A DNA stretch of 38,306 bases from Bacteroidia bacterium (GCA_009929445.1 SAAL01000029.1:1-38306), one strand, 5' to 3'. Counted from the first letter of the stretch, positions 7,712-33,187 are shown. The notes: generated by a model not told the origin, from the letters alone. Translations and numbers: made by a program.

Positions 7712-7725
7712 ATTTGAGTTTCGAG

Positions 7726-7766
7726 TTCTGTGTTCTGTATTCTGTGTTCTGTGTTCTGTGTTCTAA
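7726..7766. repeat. Heptanucleotide tandem array TTCTGTG
   Basis: Units are TTCTGTG (7726), TTCTGTA (7733), TTCTGTG (7740, 7747, 7754), then degenerate TTCTAAA (7761). Four of six units are identical, with a strict 7-bp period. It lies in the batE to PAP2 gap, 15 nt ahead of a second array with related units. Confidence 0.85.
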
Positions 7767-7780
7767 ATTGAAGGCATGCT

Positions 7781-7835
7781 TTCTAATTTCTAATTTCTAA
7801 TTTCTAATTTCTAATTTTTAATTTTTAATTTCTAA
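7781..7835. repeat. Heptanucleotide tandem array TTCTAAT
   Basis: Five perfect TTCTAAT units, two TTTTAAT, then TTCTAA, all on a 7-bp period. It ends 14 nt before two palindromes. A nearly identical eight-unit array occurs 25 kb away at 33123-33178. Confidence 0.9.
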
Positions 7836-8692: not shown

Positions 8693-8707
8693 ATTTGATA
8701 ATCAAAT
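8693..8707. promoter_or_regulatory. Palindrome ATTTGAT-A-ATCAAAT over the -33 box
   Basis: Perfect 7-bp arms with a one-base centre, overlapping the TTTG of the transposase promoter. The position would suit an operator for self-repression or a host factor site; no binding protein can be named. Confidence 0.4.
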
Positions 8708-8724
8708 ATAATATATTATTTTTG
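8694..8724 (+). promoter_or_regulatory. Transposase promoter, Bacteroidetes consensus
   Basis: TTTG (8694-8697), a 19-nt spacer and TATTTTTG (8717-8724) exactly fit the Bacteroidetes -33/-7 consensus TTTG and TAnnTTTG. The expected start of transcription is near 8730, about 15 nt before the ATG. Confidence 0.7.
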
Positions 8725-8744
8725 GGTGTTGCAAAAAAAATAAT

Positions 8745-10268
8745 ATGTATATTAGAAAACTTATAAATCGTTCAGGAAGCATTAGTATTCAGATAATTAG
8801 CAAGTCAAGAGGTCGCTACAAAGTAGTGAAAACTATTGGTTCTGCCACATCGTTGCAGGAAGTGGAACGGTTAAAACAGTTAGCACGGCAGCAGATAGAG
8901 GATATTGAACGTCAGCCATCCTTGTTTTTATCTGATCAAGATGAGCTGATTGAAAAAGCGTTTTCGCTCCTATCCAACAGCTGTATTCGAACGGTAGGCC
9001 CGGAATTAGTTTTTGGAAAGATTTACGATCATATAGGATTTGATGGTATTGCAGATGAGATGTTTCGCCATTTGGTTATATCCCGTTTGGCTTTTCCGCT
9101 GAGCAAGCTCAAAACCGTCGAGTATCTATATCGCTATCAAGGTGTTTCACTTGACATTGATGCCGTTTATCGTTTTTTGGACAAGTTGAACAGTAAGCTC
9201 AAAGCACAGGTAGAACAAATTGCTTATCATCATACACAGCGTATTTCAGGCGGCAGTATCGGTATTGTTTTCTACGATATGACTACGCTCTATTTTGAAG
9301 CATCGGACGAAGACGATTTACGTAAAACAGGTTTTAGTAAAGACGGGAAACACAGCAATCCACAAATATTTATCGGATTGCTTGTGGCAGCAGGCGGCTA
9401 TTTGATAGGTTACGACATTTACGAAGGAAACACCTATGAGGGACATACACTCATTCCTTTTATCGAAAAAACAGCGAAGAAGTTTGATTTACAGAAGCCC
9501 GTTGTAATAGCTGATAGCGGACTTCTGTCCGACCAAAACATTGAAGCATTAGAAGAAAAGCGCTACGAATATATTTTGGGAGCAAGAATAAAAAACGAAC
9601 CGAACGCAATCAAAAAAGCCATTACAGCACAAGCCTATACCAATGGACAGGCAATGGTTCTGGACAAACAGAAAGGCAGACGTCTCATTGTTCAATACTC
9701 GGACAAACGAGCTGCAAAAGACCGTTATAACCGCGAACGAGGACTTAAAAGATTAGAGAAGAAAGTCACTTCAGGCAGACTGACCAAAGCCAATATCAAC
9801 AACCGAGGTTATAACAAATACTTGAAAATGGAAGGCGAGGTAATAATAAGCATTGATACGGAAAAGTTTGAAAAGGACAGTTGCTGGGATGGATTAAAAG
9901 GTTATCTGACAAATACAAAATTAGACAATCAAGCCGTTTTCGACAATTACAAAGAGCTTTGGCAGATTGAAAAGGCGTTCAGAATGTCGAAAACGGACTT
10001 ACGTATCCGACCTGTTTATCATCGCAAGCAACATCGAATTGAAGCCCATATCTGCATTGCATTTACAGCATATTGCGTGTACAAGGAGCTTGAAAGAGTG
10101 CTTTATAACAATAAAAGTTCAATCTCGCTAAAACAAGCTGCCGAACTGACACATAATATGTATCAAATTGAATACACATTGCCGCAAAGCAAACACTCGA
10201 AATCAATGCTGTTGAAAATGGATGAGAAACAGCAAGAATTGATGGAAATAGTTAATGAGAATTTTTAG
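8745..10268 (+). CDS. IS1634-family DDE transposase
   Basis: A 507-residue transposase. The N-terminus (MYIRKLINRSGSISIQII) is typical of the IS1634 group of the IS4 superfamily. The catalytic triad is visible: D178 in FYDMTTLYF, D257 in VIADSGLLS, and E409 in LWQIEKAFRMSKTDL, the E-x6-K-type box near the C-terminus. A long insertion between the second Asp and the Glu (about 260-400) is normal for this superfamily. The frame is uninterrupted, so the enzyme is probably active. The stop codon overlaps the first base of the right inverted repeat. The start has an A-rich leader rather than a Shine-Dalgarno, as usual in this phylum. Confidence 0.95.
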   Translation: MYIRKLINRSGSISIQIISKSRGRYKVVKTIGSATSLQEVERLKQLARQQIEDIERQPSLFLSDQDELIEKAFSLLSNSCIRTVGPELVFGKIYDHIGFDGIADEMFRHLVISRLAFPLSKLKTVEYLYRYQGVSLDIDAVYRFLDKLNSKLKAQVEQIAYHHTQRISGGSIGIVFYDMTTLYFEASDEDDLRKTGFSKDGKHSNPQIFIGLLVAAGGYLIGYDIYEGNTYEGHTLIPFIEKTAKKFDLQKPVVIADSGLLSDQNIEALEEKRYEYILGARIKNEPNAIKKAITAQAYTNGQAMVLDKQKGRRLIVQYSDKRAAKDRYNRERGLKRLEKKVTSGRLTKANINNRGYNKYLKMEGEVIISIDTEKFEKDSCWDGLKGYLTNTKLDNQAVFDNYKELWQIEKAFRMSKTDLRIRPVYHRKQHRIEAHICIAFTAYCVYKELERVLYNNKSSISLKQAAELTHNMYQIEYTLPQSKHSKSMLLKMDEKQQELMEIVNENF

Positions 10269-20937: not shown

Positions 20938-21056
20938 CTAATAATTCCTTTCAATTGGTTCAATATTATCTGACAAATTGTGATTTTAGTCCCAATAATT
21001 TATACATCATTTTTTAAAATATTATTTAAAATAATCCTAAATAATTGGAGAATAGG

Positions 21057-21087
21057 TTTGAATTGAATCACGTTTGAATTATATTTG
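21057..21087 (+). promoter_or_regulatory. Promoter of the metal cassette
   Basis: TTTG (21057-21060), 19-nt spacer, TATATTTG (21080-21087): an exact Bacteroidetes promoter. The -7 box ends only nine bases before the ATG at 21097, so the transcript would have almost no leader. Confidence 0.7.
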
Positions 21088-21096
21088 CAGTCGCTT

Positions 21097-21564
21097 ATGA
21101 AAACAAAGGCAATACATATCATTTTAAGTTTGTTTTTTTCTGCAATTTTCATGTTTGCCGGAACAGGCTATAACCTCATTCGTTACTGCTGTGATGATTG
21201 CCGGAATACCGGAATATGGAAGGTTGAAGAAATGTCGTGTGAAATCGTACACGACCAACATCATCACTCCTGCTGTGGTTCGGGCTATAGCCAAACCGTA
21301 CCCGCTCCAAAATCATGTGTGAATGAAATGAACAAGGGATGCGATATTGATCGTCTCACTGTCGATGTTCCTTCAGTGCAATCTTCAGAATCAGAGGCTC
21401 TCAATTATTCTCTTATTTATTCGCAATTAGCTGATTATCAAATAGATGTGACTTCGTATTCCTCTTTCACGTCAGATCCGGTTAGCCATCACACACCACC
21501 CAATATTTCTTTTCCACAGGCGGGAAGATACATTCTTTCCAAAATTTCCGTGCTCATTATTTGA
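21097..21564 (+). CDS. HYC_CC_PP-type exported Cys/His-rich protein
   Basis: A 155-residue protein with a signal peptide (1-22) and eight cysteines. Marks in order: a YCC-x2-C cluster (30-35), HHHSCC (55-60), further Cys at 74 and 82, and HHTPPNI (131-137). These match the family named for its HYC, CC and PP motifs, found beside TonB-dependent receptors in Bacteroidetes. The Cys/His content suggests metal binding in the periplasm. ATG 21097 was chosen; a TTG at 21085 lies inside the -7 box and cannot be the start. It leads a four-gene group with a receptor, an HMA protein and a Cys-repeat peptide. Confidence 0.82.
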   Translation: MKTKAIHIILSLFFSAIFMFAGTGYNLIRYCCDDCRNTGIWKVEEMSCEIVHDQHHHSCCGSGYSQTVPAPKSCVNEMNKGCDIDRLTVDVPSVQSSESEALNYSLIYSQLADYQIDVTSYSSFTSDPVSHHTPPNISFPQAGRYILSKISVLII

Positions 21565-21652
21565 TTATTTTATAAAATAAATCGTTTGATTTTCAGATAC
21601 ATAGATGTCTGAATCACTATTCTTTATTTTTTAAAAATATTCAAATATACAA

Positions 21653-23884
21653 ATGAAAAAACAACTAATATTACTTTTTTTAGTTTCCTTTTCCAGTGTT
21701 TCCTTTGCCCAGGTACATGGTATTATAAAGGACAATGCAGGTCAGGGTATTCCCGGAGCACACATACACTGGCTCGGAACTGACGTGGGCACACTATCCG
21801 ACGAAAGCGGACATTTTATAATTTCACAACCCAATGATGCCAATACGCTGATATTCAGCAGCATTGGCTTTGCTTCCGATACGGTAAATGTGGCTGGTAA
21901 AAACAACATTGATCAGGTAAATGTTATCCTCGACGACCACACAGAACTTGCTGAACTGACTGTAACGCAGCGCAGATCAGGGAAATATGTTAACCGACTG
22001 GCCGTACAAAACATGGAAACTCTCAATACCAACGAACTCAGAAAAGCTGCATGTTGCAACCTTTCGGAGAGTTTCACCACTAATCCTTCGGTAGATGTAT
22101 CCTACAGCGATGCGGCAACGGGTGCCAAACAGATTAAATTGCTCGGGCTGTCGGGCAGCTACGTTCAAATGCTCACCGAGAACATCCCCAACCTTCGCGG
22201 TCTTTCGTCGGCTTACGGTATGGGTTACATTCCCGGTCCGTGGATGGAAAGTATCCAGATTTCCAAGGGAACCGCATCGGTCAAAACCGGATATGAAGCC
22301 ATAGCCGGCCAAATCAACGTAGAATATAAAAAACCTCAGAACAGCGACAGGGTCTCTCTGAACATATTTACGAACAGTGTTGGCAGAACGGAGTTTAACG
22401 CCGATGCGGCTGTCAAACTCAGTGACTCGCTGGCAACATCGGTGATGCTGCATGCTTCTGATGACTACATGACACCCGACGACAACGGAGACGGATACCG
22501 GGATTTACCCCGGATTCGTCAGTACAACCTGGCAAACCGGTGGTTTTACCAGAAAGACAATTACATTCTGCAGGCATTTGTGCGGGGACTTTCTGAAAAC
22601 AGAACCGGAGGGAAAACCGATAACTCATACAAAATAGGAATCAACACCGAGCGATACGAACTGTTTGTGAAAAATGGTTTTCTGTTTGGCGGTGATGAAC
22701 ATGAAGAAGAAGGACATCAGCACGACCAAGAACACGAGCACAATCATGAGCACAACCTATCCAGTCTTGGAATAATTCTTAACGGAACCATTCACAATCA
22801 GGATGCTGTATATGGAGCCAAAAAATACGATGGCCGCCAAAATAACCTTTATCTGAATGTAATTTACGACCGTGAAATGGGTGAGCATCATAAATTTTCT
22901 GCCGGAACGAGTTTCAACATGGATACCTACGATGAAATACTGACGCTGGGGAATACGCAGAATTTCACACGGACGGAATATGTTCCGGGAGCTTTTGCCG
23001 AATACACAGTTACTTACAAAGATCTCACGGCCATGGCCGGATTAAGGGCTGATTACAATACGCTCTACGGTACGTTCGTTACCCCGCGTTTTCATGTGCG
23101 CTACAACATCAAAGACCGCGCTCACCTGAGAGTTTCTGCCGGAAAAGGGTACCGGACACCCAATATACTTGCCGAGAACAACTTTTTGCTGGCAAGTAAC
23201 CGGGTAATCAACATCGGCGAAAACCTGAAACAGGAAGAAGCCTGGAATTTTGGAGCTACAGCCCATGTTTTCATTCCGGTATGGGGCGGAAAAGAACTCG
23301 CACTGATGGGTGAATGGTTTTACACAAACTTTATCAATCAGGTAGTCGTTGATATGGATTCCAATCCGCATGCAGCAGGTTTTTACAATCTCAACGGTAA
23401 ATCCTACTCGAGCAGTCTGCAGTTTGAAGCCAACCTGGAAGTGTTCAGGGGATTTACAGCCACACTGGCTCATCGTATCAACGATGTAAAAGTGACTGTG
23501 ATGGGCCGGCTTCGCGAAAAACCGCTGAATAACCGTTCGAAAAGCCTGATTACATTCACGTACGAAACACCGCTGAAAAAATGGCAGTTTGACTACACGG
23601 CTCAATTCAACGGCGGTGGCCGCATGCCCGATCCGGATGCCTCAAATCCGCTTTGGGAAAATGAATTTAAGCCCTTTAACATTATGAATGCTCAGGTTAC
23701 CCGGAATTTCAGAACATGGTCGGTGTATGCGGGCGCTGAAAATATTACCAATTTTATGCAGCATCATCCGATTATCGACGTTCAAAATCCTTTTGGGGAC
23801 AATTTTGATGCATCCATGGTTTGGGGGCCCATGCACGGCCGGACTTTTTATGCGGGCCTGCGATGGGCTCTGACCAAAAAATAG
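21653..23884 (+). CDS. TonB-dependent receptor with His-rich loop
   Basis: A 743-residue outer-membrane receptor. Signal peptide (1-20, ending SFAQ), a carboxypeptidase-regulatory-like domain (about 21-95), plug domain (about 115-230) and 22-strand-type barrel, ending in an aromatic-rich strand (TFYAGLRWALTKK). Two unusual features point to metal: adjacent C134-C135 at the start of the plug, and a His/Glu run (about 350-368, ten-residue core HQHDQEHEHN) in a predicted outer loop. Neighbouring genes on both sides encode metal-binding proteins. Copper, zinc or nickel uptake is likely, but the metal cannot be chosen from sequence. Confidence 0.93.
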   Translation: MKKQLILLFLVSFSSVSFAQVHGIIKDNAGQGIPGAHIHWLGTDVGTLSDESGHFIISQPNDANTLIFSSIGFASDTVNVAGKNNIDQVNVILDDHTELAELTVTQRRSGKYVNRLAVQNMETLNTNELRKAACCNLSESFTTNPSVDVSYSDAATGAKQIKLLGLSGSYVQMLTENIPNLRGLSSAYGMGYIPGPWMESIQISKGTASVKTGYEAIAGQINVEYKKPQNSDRVSLNIFTNSVGRTEFNADAAVKLSDSLATSVMLHASDDYMTPDDNGDGYRDLPRIRQYNLANRWFYQKDNYILQAFVRGLSENRTGGKTDNSYKIGINTERYELFVKNGFLFGGDEHEEEGHQHDQEHEHNHEHNLSSLGIILNGTIHNQDAVYGAKKYDGRQNNLYLNVIYDREMGEHHKFSAGTSFNMDTYDEILTLGNTQNFTRTEYVPGAFAEYTVTYKDLTAMAGLRADYNTLYGTFVTPRFHVRYNIKDRAHLRVSAGKGYRTPNILAENNFLLASNRVINIGENLKQEEAWNFGATAHVFIPVWGGKELALMGEWFYTNFINQVVVDMDSNPHAAGFYNLNGKSYSSSLQFEANLEVFRGFTATLAHRINDVKVTVMGRLREKPLNNRSKSLITFTYETPLKKWQFDYTAQFNGGGRMPDPDASNPLWENEFKPFNIMNAQVTRNFRTWSVYAGAENITNFMQHHPIIDVQNPFGDNFDASMVWGPMHGRTFYAGLRWALTKK

Positions 23885-23925
23885 TCAATTTGCAACATTC
23901 AAATAAAACAATAAAAATAAATAAT

Positions 23926-24258
23926 ATGAAGACAAAAATATGGATTGTAGCTGTCATTGCGTTGATAATGATATCATTAGCAGCCGAAGCTCAGAGTAAA
24001 AAAAACGAAAACACCAAAACAGTCACTTTTGAAGTCTCCATGACTTGCCAAAACTGCCAACGAACCATCGAAAAAAACATTGCCTGGGAAAAGGGAATGA
24101 AAGATATAAAAGTGGATTTAGAAATGAAACTGGTGACACTCACATTTGATACACGTAAAACCAGCGAAGAAAAACTGATTGAAGCATTTGAAAATCTCGG
24201 CTATACAGCTGAAGCAGTTCAGAATAATCAAAACGAAAAAAATGTAAACAAACAATAA
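23926..24258 (+). CDS. Exported heavy-metal-associated (HMA) domain protein
   Basis: A 110-residue protein: signal peptide 1-22 (AAEAQ), then one HMA domain (about 32-98) with the metal-binding C41-x-x-C44 in SMTCQNCQRTIEK. The C-terminal FENLGYTAEA is typical of the fold. HMA domains carry soft metals such as Cu(I) or Zn(II); here the domain is exported instead of cytoplasmic. I chose ATG 23926, since the frame open from 23821 overlaps the receptor gene and lacks a signal peptide. It likely passes metal taken in by the receptor. Confidence 0.9.
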   Translation: MKTKIWIVAVIALIMISLAAEAQSKKNENTKTVTFEVSMTCQNCQRTIEKNIAWEKGMKDIKVDLEMKLVTLTFDTRKTSEEKLIEAFENLGYTAEAVQNNQNEKNVNKQ

Positions 24259-24316
24259 ATCATCTGTAATTATCAAAATAATTGATATAACAGTTATGAT
24301 TATATGAAAAATAAAA

Positions 24317-24324
24317 TATCTTTG
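24317..24324 (+). promoter_or_regulatory. -7 box ahead of the Cys-repeat gene
   Basis: TATCTTTG fits TAnnTTTG. It lies 43 nt before the ATG at 24367, so the upstream ATG at 24304 would not be in this transcript. The -33 position reads TTAT, a weak match. The gene may be expressed separately from the receptor. Confidence 0.45.
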
Positions 24325-24366
24325 TCGGATAAAATAAATTACAATCACTTAAAAAATAGAATCAAA

Positions 24367-24696
24367 ATGAAAACTAACAACATCATGATGGCAATTGTTG
24401 CCGTATTTCTCTCAGTATCAGTAATGACCGCTGCAGTACCTGCCAAAAAAACCGTAAAATCAGAACCGGTGAAAAAAGAATGCTGTGATCAGGCCAAAAA
24501 AGCCGAATGCAAAGACAAAGCTGCTACCGAATGCAAGGACAAAGCTGCAACCGAATGCAAAGATAAAGTTGCAGGCGAATGCAAAGACAAAGCCGCTACC
24601 GAATGCAAAGACAAAGCCACTACGGAATGCAAAGACAAAACAAATCTGACAGCACAGGAAAAATCTGCTTGCTGCGAAAGCAAAAAAAAGTTGTAG
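24367..24696 (+). CDS. Exported Cys-repeat peptide, six ECKDK units
   Basis: A 109-residue protein with a signal peptide (about 1-23) and ten cysteines. The mature part holds CC at 39-40, then six ECKDK units at an exact 8-residue spacing (Cys at 48, 56, 64, 72, 80 and 88), and CC at 102-103. The linkers are AAT, AAT, VAG, AAT and ATT. It is rich in Lys and Glu/Asp and has no aromatic residues after the signal peptide, so it looks like an extended or helical metallothionein-like binder. I do not recognise a named family. ATG 24367 was chosen for the signal peptide and the -7 box at 24317. Confidence 0.8.
   Translation: MKTNNIMMAIVAVFLSVSVMTAAVPAKKTVKSEPVKKECCDQAKKAECKDKAATECKDKAATECKDKVAGECKDKAATECKDKATTECKDKTNLTAQEKSACCESKKKL
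24505..24639 (+). repeat. 24-bp tandem repeat inside the Cys-repeat gene
   Basis: Five full 24-bp units beginning GAATGCAAAGACAAA and one partial sixth unit. Units differ mostly at synonymous sites (for example AAG/AAA, GAC/GAT, GCT/GCC), so the protein repeat seems maintained while the DNA diverges. Confidence 0.9.
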
Positions 24697-24745
24697 TTAA
24701 GGCTCAATAAGAAATACGGATTAAGTAAGTCCGGATTTACAGGCG

Positions 24746-24783
24746 GAGATGTCATTTTTCAGATGACGTCTCTGTTTTTTTTT
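24746..24783 (+). terminator. Terminator of the metal cassette
   Basis: GAGATGTCAT (24746-24755) pairs with ATGACGTCTC (24763-24772) with one G-U, then TG and nine T's. A clear Rho-independent terminator about 50 nt after the Cys-repeat stop. Confidence 0.9.
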
Positions 24784-33122: not shown

Positions 33123-33178
33123 TTCTAACTTCTGACTTCTGACTTCTGACTTCTAATTTCTAATTTTTAATTTCTAAC
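33123..33178. repeat. Heptanucleotide tandem array before yajC
   Basis: Eight units on a strict 7-bp period: TTCTAAC, TTCTGAC (three times), TTCTAAT (twice), TTTTAAT, TTCTAAC. It ends 9 nt before the yajC start codon. The same unit style, also eight units long, occurs at 7781-7835. Confidence 0.9.
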
Positions 33179-33187
33179 TTTATAAAA

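Follow-up and report, generated by a model that had tools for sequence, protein, structure and literature searches.

Three of the four genes lying between a DUF3298 lipoprotein gene and menA in a Paludibacter draft genome form a cassette that, by comparison of gene neighbourhoods, is widely conserved in Bacteroidota and probably handles copper in the cell envelope; the fourth encodes an exported Lys/Cys-rich repeat peptide. The combined reading, in which genes 1-3 would be a Cu(I)-type envelope cassette and gene 4 an exported metallothionein-like buffer, is given about an even chance of being right. The window, i.e. the whole stretch of DNA that was analysed, comprises 38,306 nt and is contig C248 of the draft genome; the genus group to which it belongs was treated as Paludibacter (Bacteroidales).

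The DUF3298 lipoprotein gene lies on the minus strand and menA on the plus strand. Within this interval all four genes are on the plus strand, preceded by a promoter and followed by an intrinsic terminator (24741..24783, plus strand) that consists of a 17-pair hairpin (24741-24777) and a T-run. A preliminary description drawn from the DNA alone had listed these genes, the promoter and the terminator, and each was found where it had been placed. Export of the cassette proteins was judged from their N-termini alone.

The first three gene types are already known by family name, and their co-occurrence, which the preliminary description had taken as given, is borne out by 103 unique receptor loci. 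A detectable relative of gene 1 lies just upstream of the receptor in 51 of them, a lower bound because the gene-1 HMM is narrow, and a gene for an exported HMA protein lies just downstream in 86. The order HYC-receptor-HMA is conserved across the loci. Searches of the open-access literature on HYC_CC_PP, and on copper and TonB receptors in Bacteroides and Bacteroidetes, turned up no functional study of the cassette, and a paper on the Bacteroides iron stimulon (PMC10434189) yielded no tie to it.

Gene 2 (21653..23884, plus strand) encodes the TonB-dependent receptor, a protein of 743 aa with an N-terminal carboxypeptidase-like domain (PF13715), a plug (PF07715, 35.9 bits) and a beta-barrel (PF00593, 90.3 bits), the latter two scoring over the Pfam cut-offs. 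The AlphaFold model of the receptor has a mean pLDDT of 84 and contains the barrel; the plug segment 133-140 is modelled with a pLDDT below 50. Relatives were detected in 40 of 61 genomes by a whole-protein search that made no use of motifs. Among 30 receptors found in this motif-free way the plug Cys-Cys pair (C134-C135, codons at 22052..22057 on the plus strand) is invariant, and H267 and H381 are each kept in 29. The pair is likewise invariant in a wider alignment of 63 receptors, the loci of which had been found partly via the Cys-Cys motif itself, and it is also present in three loci that the motif filter had initially missed. By these alignments the plug Cys-Cys, together with H267 and H381, is the mark of the receptor family.

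The metal signature originally proposed for the receptor was a His-rich loop. This loop is present (approximately residues 349-371, 22697..22765, plus strand), but among 30 loci read it is confined to the nearest relatives, and it was set aside as a functional metal site because it is unconserved beyond them; the conserved signature is the plug Cys-Cys instead. Membership in the OprC family was also considered and rejected, as the receptor gives no match to TIGR01778, the cut-off of which is passed in no Paludibacter genome. With the OprC/NosA copper receptors (TIGR01778; PMC8610252) gene 2 shares the TonB-dependent fold and a plug cysteine as hallmark. It differs from them in its additional N-terminal carboxypeptidase-like domain and in the site itself: the metal site of OprC is given as CxxxM-HxM (PMC8610252), whereas the plug of the present family reads ACCNLSESF and has Cys-Cys in place of that pattern. 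A Foldseek search against the PDB returned generic receptor matches (BtuB, FepA, OprC and many others), which give no pointer to the ligand.

Gene 1 (21097..21564, plus strand) encodes a Cys/His-rich protein of 155 aa that is predicted to be exported or membrane-anchored. The product has no NCBIfam or Pfam match and none to the HYC_CC_PP model NF047658 at E<=1; its earlier assignment to the HYC_CC_PP type thus fails on the protein's own family matches and is retained because gene 1 aligns with homologues from the same slot, 13 of the 38 aligned slot homologues matching NF047658. When gene 1 is aligned with 37 such homologues, C32 is invariant and G24, C48 and P135 are nearly so. The motifs that give the family its name are found in order as RYCC, SCC and TPP, the first beginning with R where the family name has H. 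The gene 1 group resembles HYC_CC_PP in its slot, the Tyr/Phe-Cys and Cys-Cys motifs, the C-terminal PP and a GRxxL motif, but the protein of the window fails the curated model.

Gene 3 (23926..24258, plus strand) encodes a protein of 110 aa with a single HMA domain and a CxxC motif (PF00403, E=1.4e-14, 54.6 bits against a cut-off of 24.8), which agrees with its earlier description as an exported HMA protein. Among single NCBIfam models MerP scores best, at 49.2 of the 92.55 bits demanded by its equivalog cut-off, and the CopZ models are also below cut-off. The protein resembles the CopZ/MerP metallochaperones (PF00403) in having one HMA domain with CxxC; unlike them it is predicted to be exported, is coupled to a receptor, and has relatives that often carry Cys- or His-rich tails. 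Gene 3 itself has no Cys tail. Outside Paludibacter the HMA protein bears a tail with at least three cysteines in 20 of 81 loci, with a maximum of 14 in a Prevotella locus (L104), and the five Paludibacter HMA proteins encoded beside gene 4 all lack tail cysteines. Two further loci (L065 and L056) have exported proteins with two HMA domains just after the receptor, connected in L065 by a Cys-rich linker, and in an Ignavibacterium (L112) the protein in the HMA slot, 25 nt after the receptor, has instead a YHS-like segment and is exported and Cys-rich.

The best guess for the metal of the cassette is Cu(I), because copper-type ATPases and HMA-like regulators lie beside the cassette in other genomes and CopA is encoded in the genome of the window. 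In five Bacteroides species (L042-L045, L050) the gene directly after the HMA gene encodes a CPx-type P-type ATPase of approximately 736 aa, and the three of these ATPases that were scanned score 574-595 bits to the copper-translocating model TIGR01511, which has a cut-off of 397. This adjacency of CopA (P1B-1 ATPase, TIGR01511) is restricted to Bacteroides, at 5 of the 103 loci. Short regulators with an N-terminal HMA-like CxxC segment are encoded just upstream of the receptor in L057, L058 and L093, and both regulators scanned (L057 and L093) have an AraC-type DNA-binding part. The preliminary description had noted the lack of an efflux pump or P-type ATPase, which holds within the window; CopA (581 bits) is found elsewhere in the same genome, on contig C231, where a small HMA protein accompanies it.

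The same neighbours lend some weight to a reading in which the cassette serves not uptake but detoxification of excess copper or silver, by sensing, sequestering and the CopA pump. The directly downstream CopA genes of the five Bacteroides species, the fit of the Cys-rich tails and the peptide to sequestration, and the CopZ/MerP-like character of the gene 3 HMA domain make this a serious alternative, to which we give rather less than an even chance: TonB-dependent receptors import as a rule, and RND efflux parts are not a consistent neighbour of the cassette. A ligand other than copper, be it a soft or borderline metal (Zn, Ni, Hg) or a metal-chelate, is compatible with Cys/His motifs, which do not fix the metal, and with the rank of MerP among the models for gene 3; the clearly copper-type scores of the neighbouring ATPases speak against it, and we regard it as improbable. 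In the preferred reading, that of copper uptake and handling in the envelope, the TonB-driven receptor would bind the metal at the plug Cys-Cys and carry it into the periplasm, where the exported HMA protein, judged by its family, would pick it up via CxxC and pass it on. The HYC_CC_PP-type protein would be an additional putative Cys/His metal binder of the envelope, and the peptide encoded by gene 4 may bind several soft-metal ions and so buffer them in the periplasm. Of this chain we infer that the ligand is copper, that the receptor imports it, that the HMA protein receives it next and that the peptide acts as a buffer.

Genes 1-3 appear, from the sequence upstream, to be driven by a near-leaderless promoter that is controlled through a dedicated site. 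The promoter (21057..21087, plus strand) is of the Bacteroidota type, TTTG-N19-TATATTTG, with its -7 box at 21080-21087. Approximately 1.8 chance matches to the pattern are expected per window. The promoter of gene 1 is nevertheless real by the evidence of comparison, because 31 of 51 loci have a TAnnTTTG box placed 12-24 nt ahead of the start codon of gene 1; a box at that distance precedes 31 of 484 other genes in these loci and 3 of 101 receptor starts, and shuffled sequences give 0.6 of 51. A box at this distance implies a leader of merely a few bases; gene 1 thus appears to be near-leaderless, with the placement of the -7 box kept across genera.

Further upstream, 75 nt before gene 1, lies a conserved 23-bp element, TTATTTAAAATAATCCTAAATAA (21022..21044, plus strand), a candidate regulator site that may be dedicated to the cassette. 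It contains a perfect inverted repeat, TTATTT-A-AAATAA, with a third half-site 10 bp further, and is situated 71-75 nt before gene 1 in Paludibacter. The consensus has one exact match per genome in G000, G001, G002, G005 and G007, each at gene 1. Genome G001 serves as an independent test because it had been left out when the pattern was derived, and its copy precedes the gene-1 relative. The element is degenerate in G003 and absent from G004 and G006, both of which are without the receptor. A few matches with two mismatches occur elsewhere. For the element itself, 0 matches are expected in the shuffled window. A search of the regions ahead of the cassette in other genera gave no conserved counterpart.

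Gene 4 (24367..24696, plus strand) encodes a Lys/Cys-rich peptide of 109 aa with a signal-like N-terminus. Its ten cysteines and its repeat structure are as first described: a 24-nt tandem repeat of 5.7 copies (24503..24639, plus strand) encodes ECKDKAAT units. The first in-frame ATG, at 24304, was rejected as the start since it lies too far upstream, and 24367 is common to the relatives, which are present in G001, G002, G003, G004 and G007. Gene 4 is a real gene under purifying selection, because dN is well below dS (0.33 against 1.00 between G000 and G001), and its relatives keep the signal peptide and a Cys pattern with ECK/ECC spacing. The product matches no Pfam, NCBIfam or PHROGs family, including the family models for metallothioneins. 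It is small and Cys-rich like the SmtA-type bacterial metallothioneins, and in its predicted role it resembles the exported copper store Csp1 (PMC7558416); Csp1 has a Tat signal and forms a four-helix bundle (PMC7558416). The gene 4 product differs from both in its Lys-rich tandem repeat and Sec-like signal, and has no sequence match to either family.

Gene 4 is probably transcribed on its own. A -7 box, TATCTTTG (24317..24324, plus strand), marks a candidate separate promoter, and a TAnnTTTG box recurs 50-62 nt ahead of gene 4 in four of six genomes (G000, G003, G004 and G007), so that a single four-gene transcript is not established. The Cys-repeat gene adjoins the receptor cassette in five of the six receptor-bearing Paludibacter genomes, and the sixth (G005) has genes 1 and 2 but neither the HMA gene nor gene 4. 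Across eight genomes, five have both gene 4 and the cassette, one has each alone and one has neither, a co-occurrence that is not significant by itself. In G004 gene 4 lies between the DUF3298 gene and menA with genes 1-3 missing. The downstream sequence available for 97 loci outside Paludibacter contains no separate Cys-repeat gene after the cassette. The proposed neighbourhood of Cys-repeat gene and receptor is thus a feature of the genus and was not seen beyond it in these loci; as a general member of the cassette, the status suggested at first, gene 4 has to be given up in view of these loci, its own -7 box and G004.

What gene 4 does in this position can be read in several ways. The peptide might be an independent neighbour of the metal cassette, a generic exported Lys/Cys-rich peptide with another job such as thiol redox buffering, zinc or general stress, its place beside the cassette being due to nothing more than shared synteny. 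Such independence would suit its own -7 box, its persistence in G004, a 23-bp site that serves gene 1 only, and the similar exported KKECC peptides that stand alone, unlinked to the cassette, in 5 of 295 Bacteroidales genomes (G135, G178, G216, G229 and G313). It would leave unexplained that, in each of the five Paludibacter genomes with both genes, gene 4 adjoins the HMA gene, and that the same HMA protein carries fused Cys-rich tails in other genera; we consider it possible but somewhat unlikely. A plain low-complexity repeat ORF without metal function is brought to mind by the 24-nt repeat and by the differences among species in length and Cys number (4-15). It is very improbable in the face of purifying selection and of the retained signal peptide and ECK/ECC spacing. 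As to the KKECC peptides, those of L157, L158 and L161 (G216, G135 and G229) are exported, Lys/Cys-rich and encoded away from any receptor gene, and low-complexity matches of this kind may be convergent.

The reading of gene 4 as a metal buffer draws on the tails of gene 3 relatives. Because the HMA protein is often Cys-tailed in other genera, gene 4 may be the tail as a separate gene, its product being the separate-molecule counterpart of the Cys-rich tails; this suggests fused and separate forms of one function, linked by composition and position without demonstrable homology. In its most specific form, gene 4 would be a periplasmic metallothionein-like copper buffer, and a metal-sponge module would have shifted between fused HMA-tail and free forms beside the Cys-Cys-plug receptor. 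This form is held only tentatively and is on balance unlikely.

The cassette bears on how Bacteroidota carry copper across the outer membrane and within the periplasm, and an exported metallothionein-like peptide, if true, would be an unusual type of periplasmic copper store. The Cys-Cys-plug receptor is directly testable because common gut Bacteroides, for which routine genetic methods exist, carry the family beside CopA. Elsewhere in the window, heptamer tandem repeats (GTTCTGT, TTTCTAA, TTCTAAC) lie between genes at 7725-7764, 7780-7835 and 33123-33180, and a DDE transposase gene at 8745-10268 has a palindromic, promoter-like sequence (8694-8735) ahead of it.
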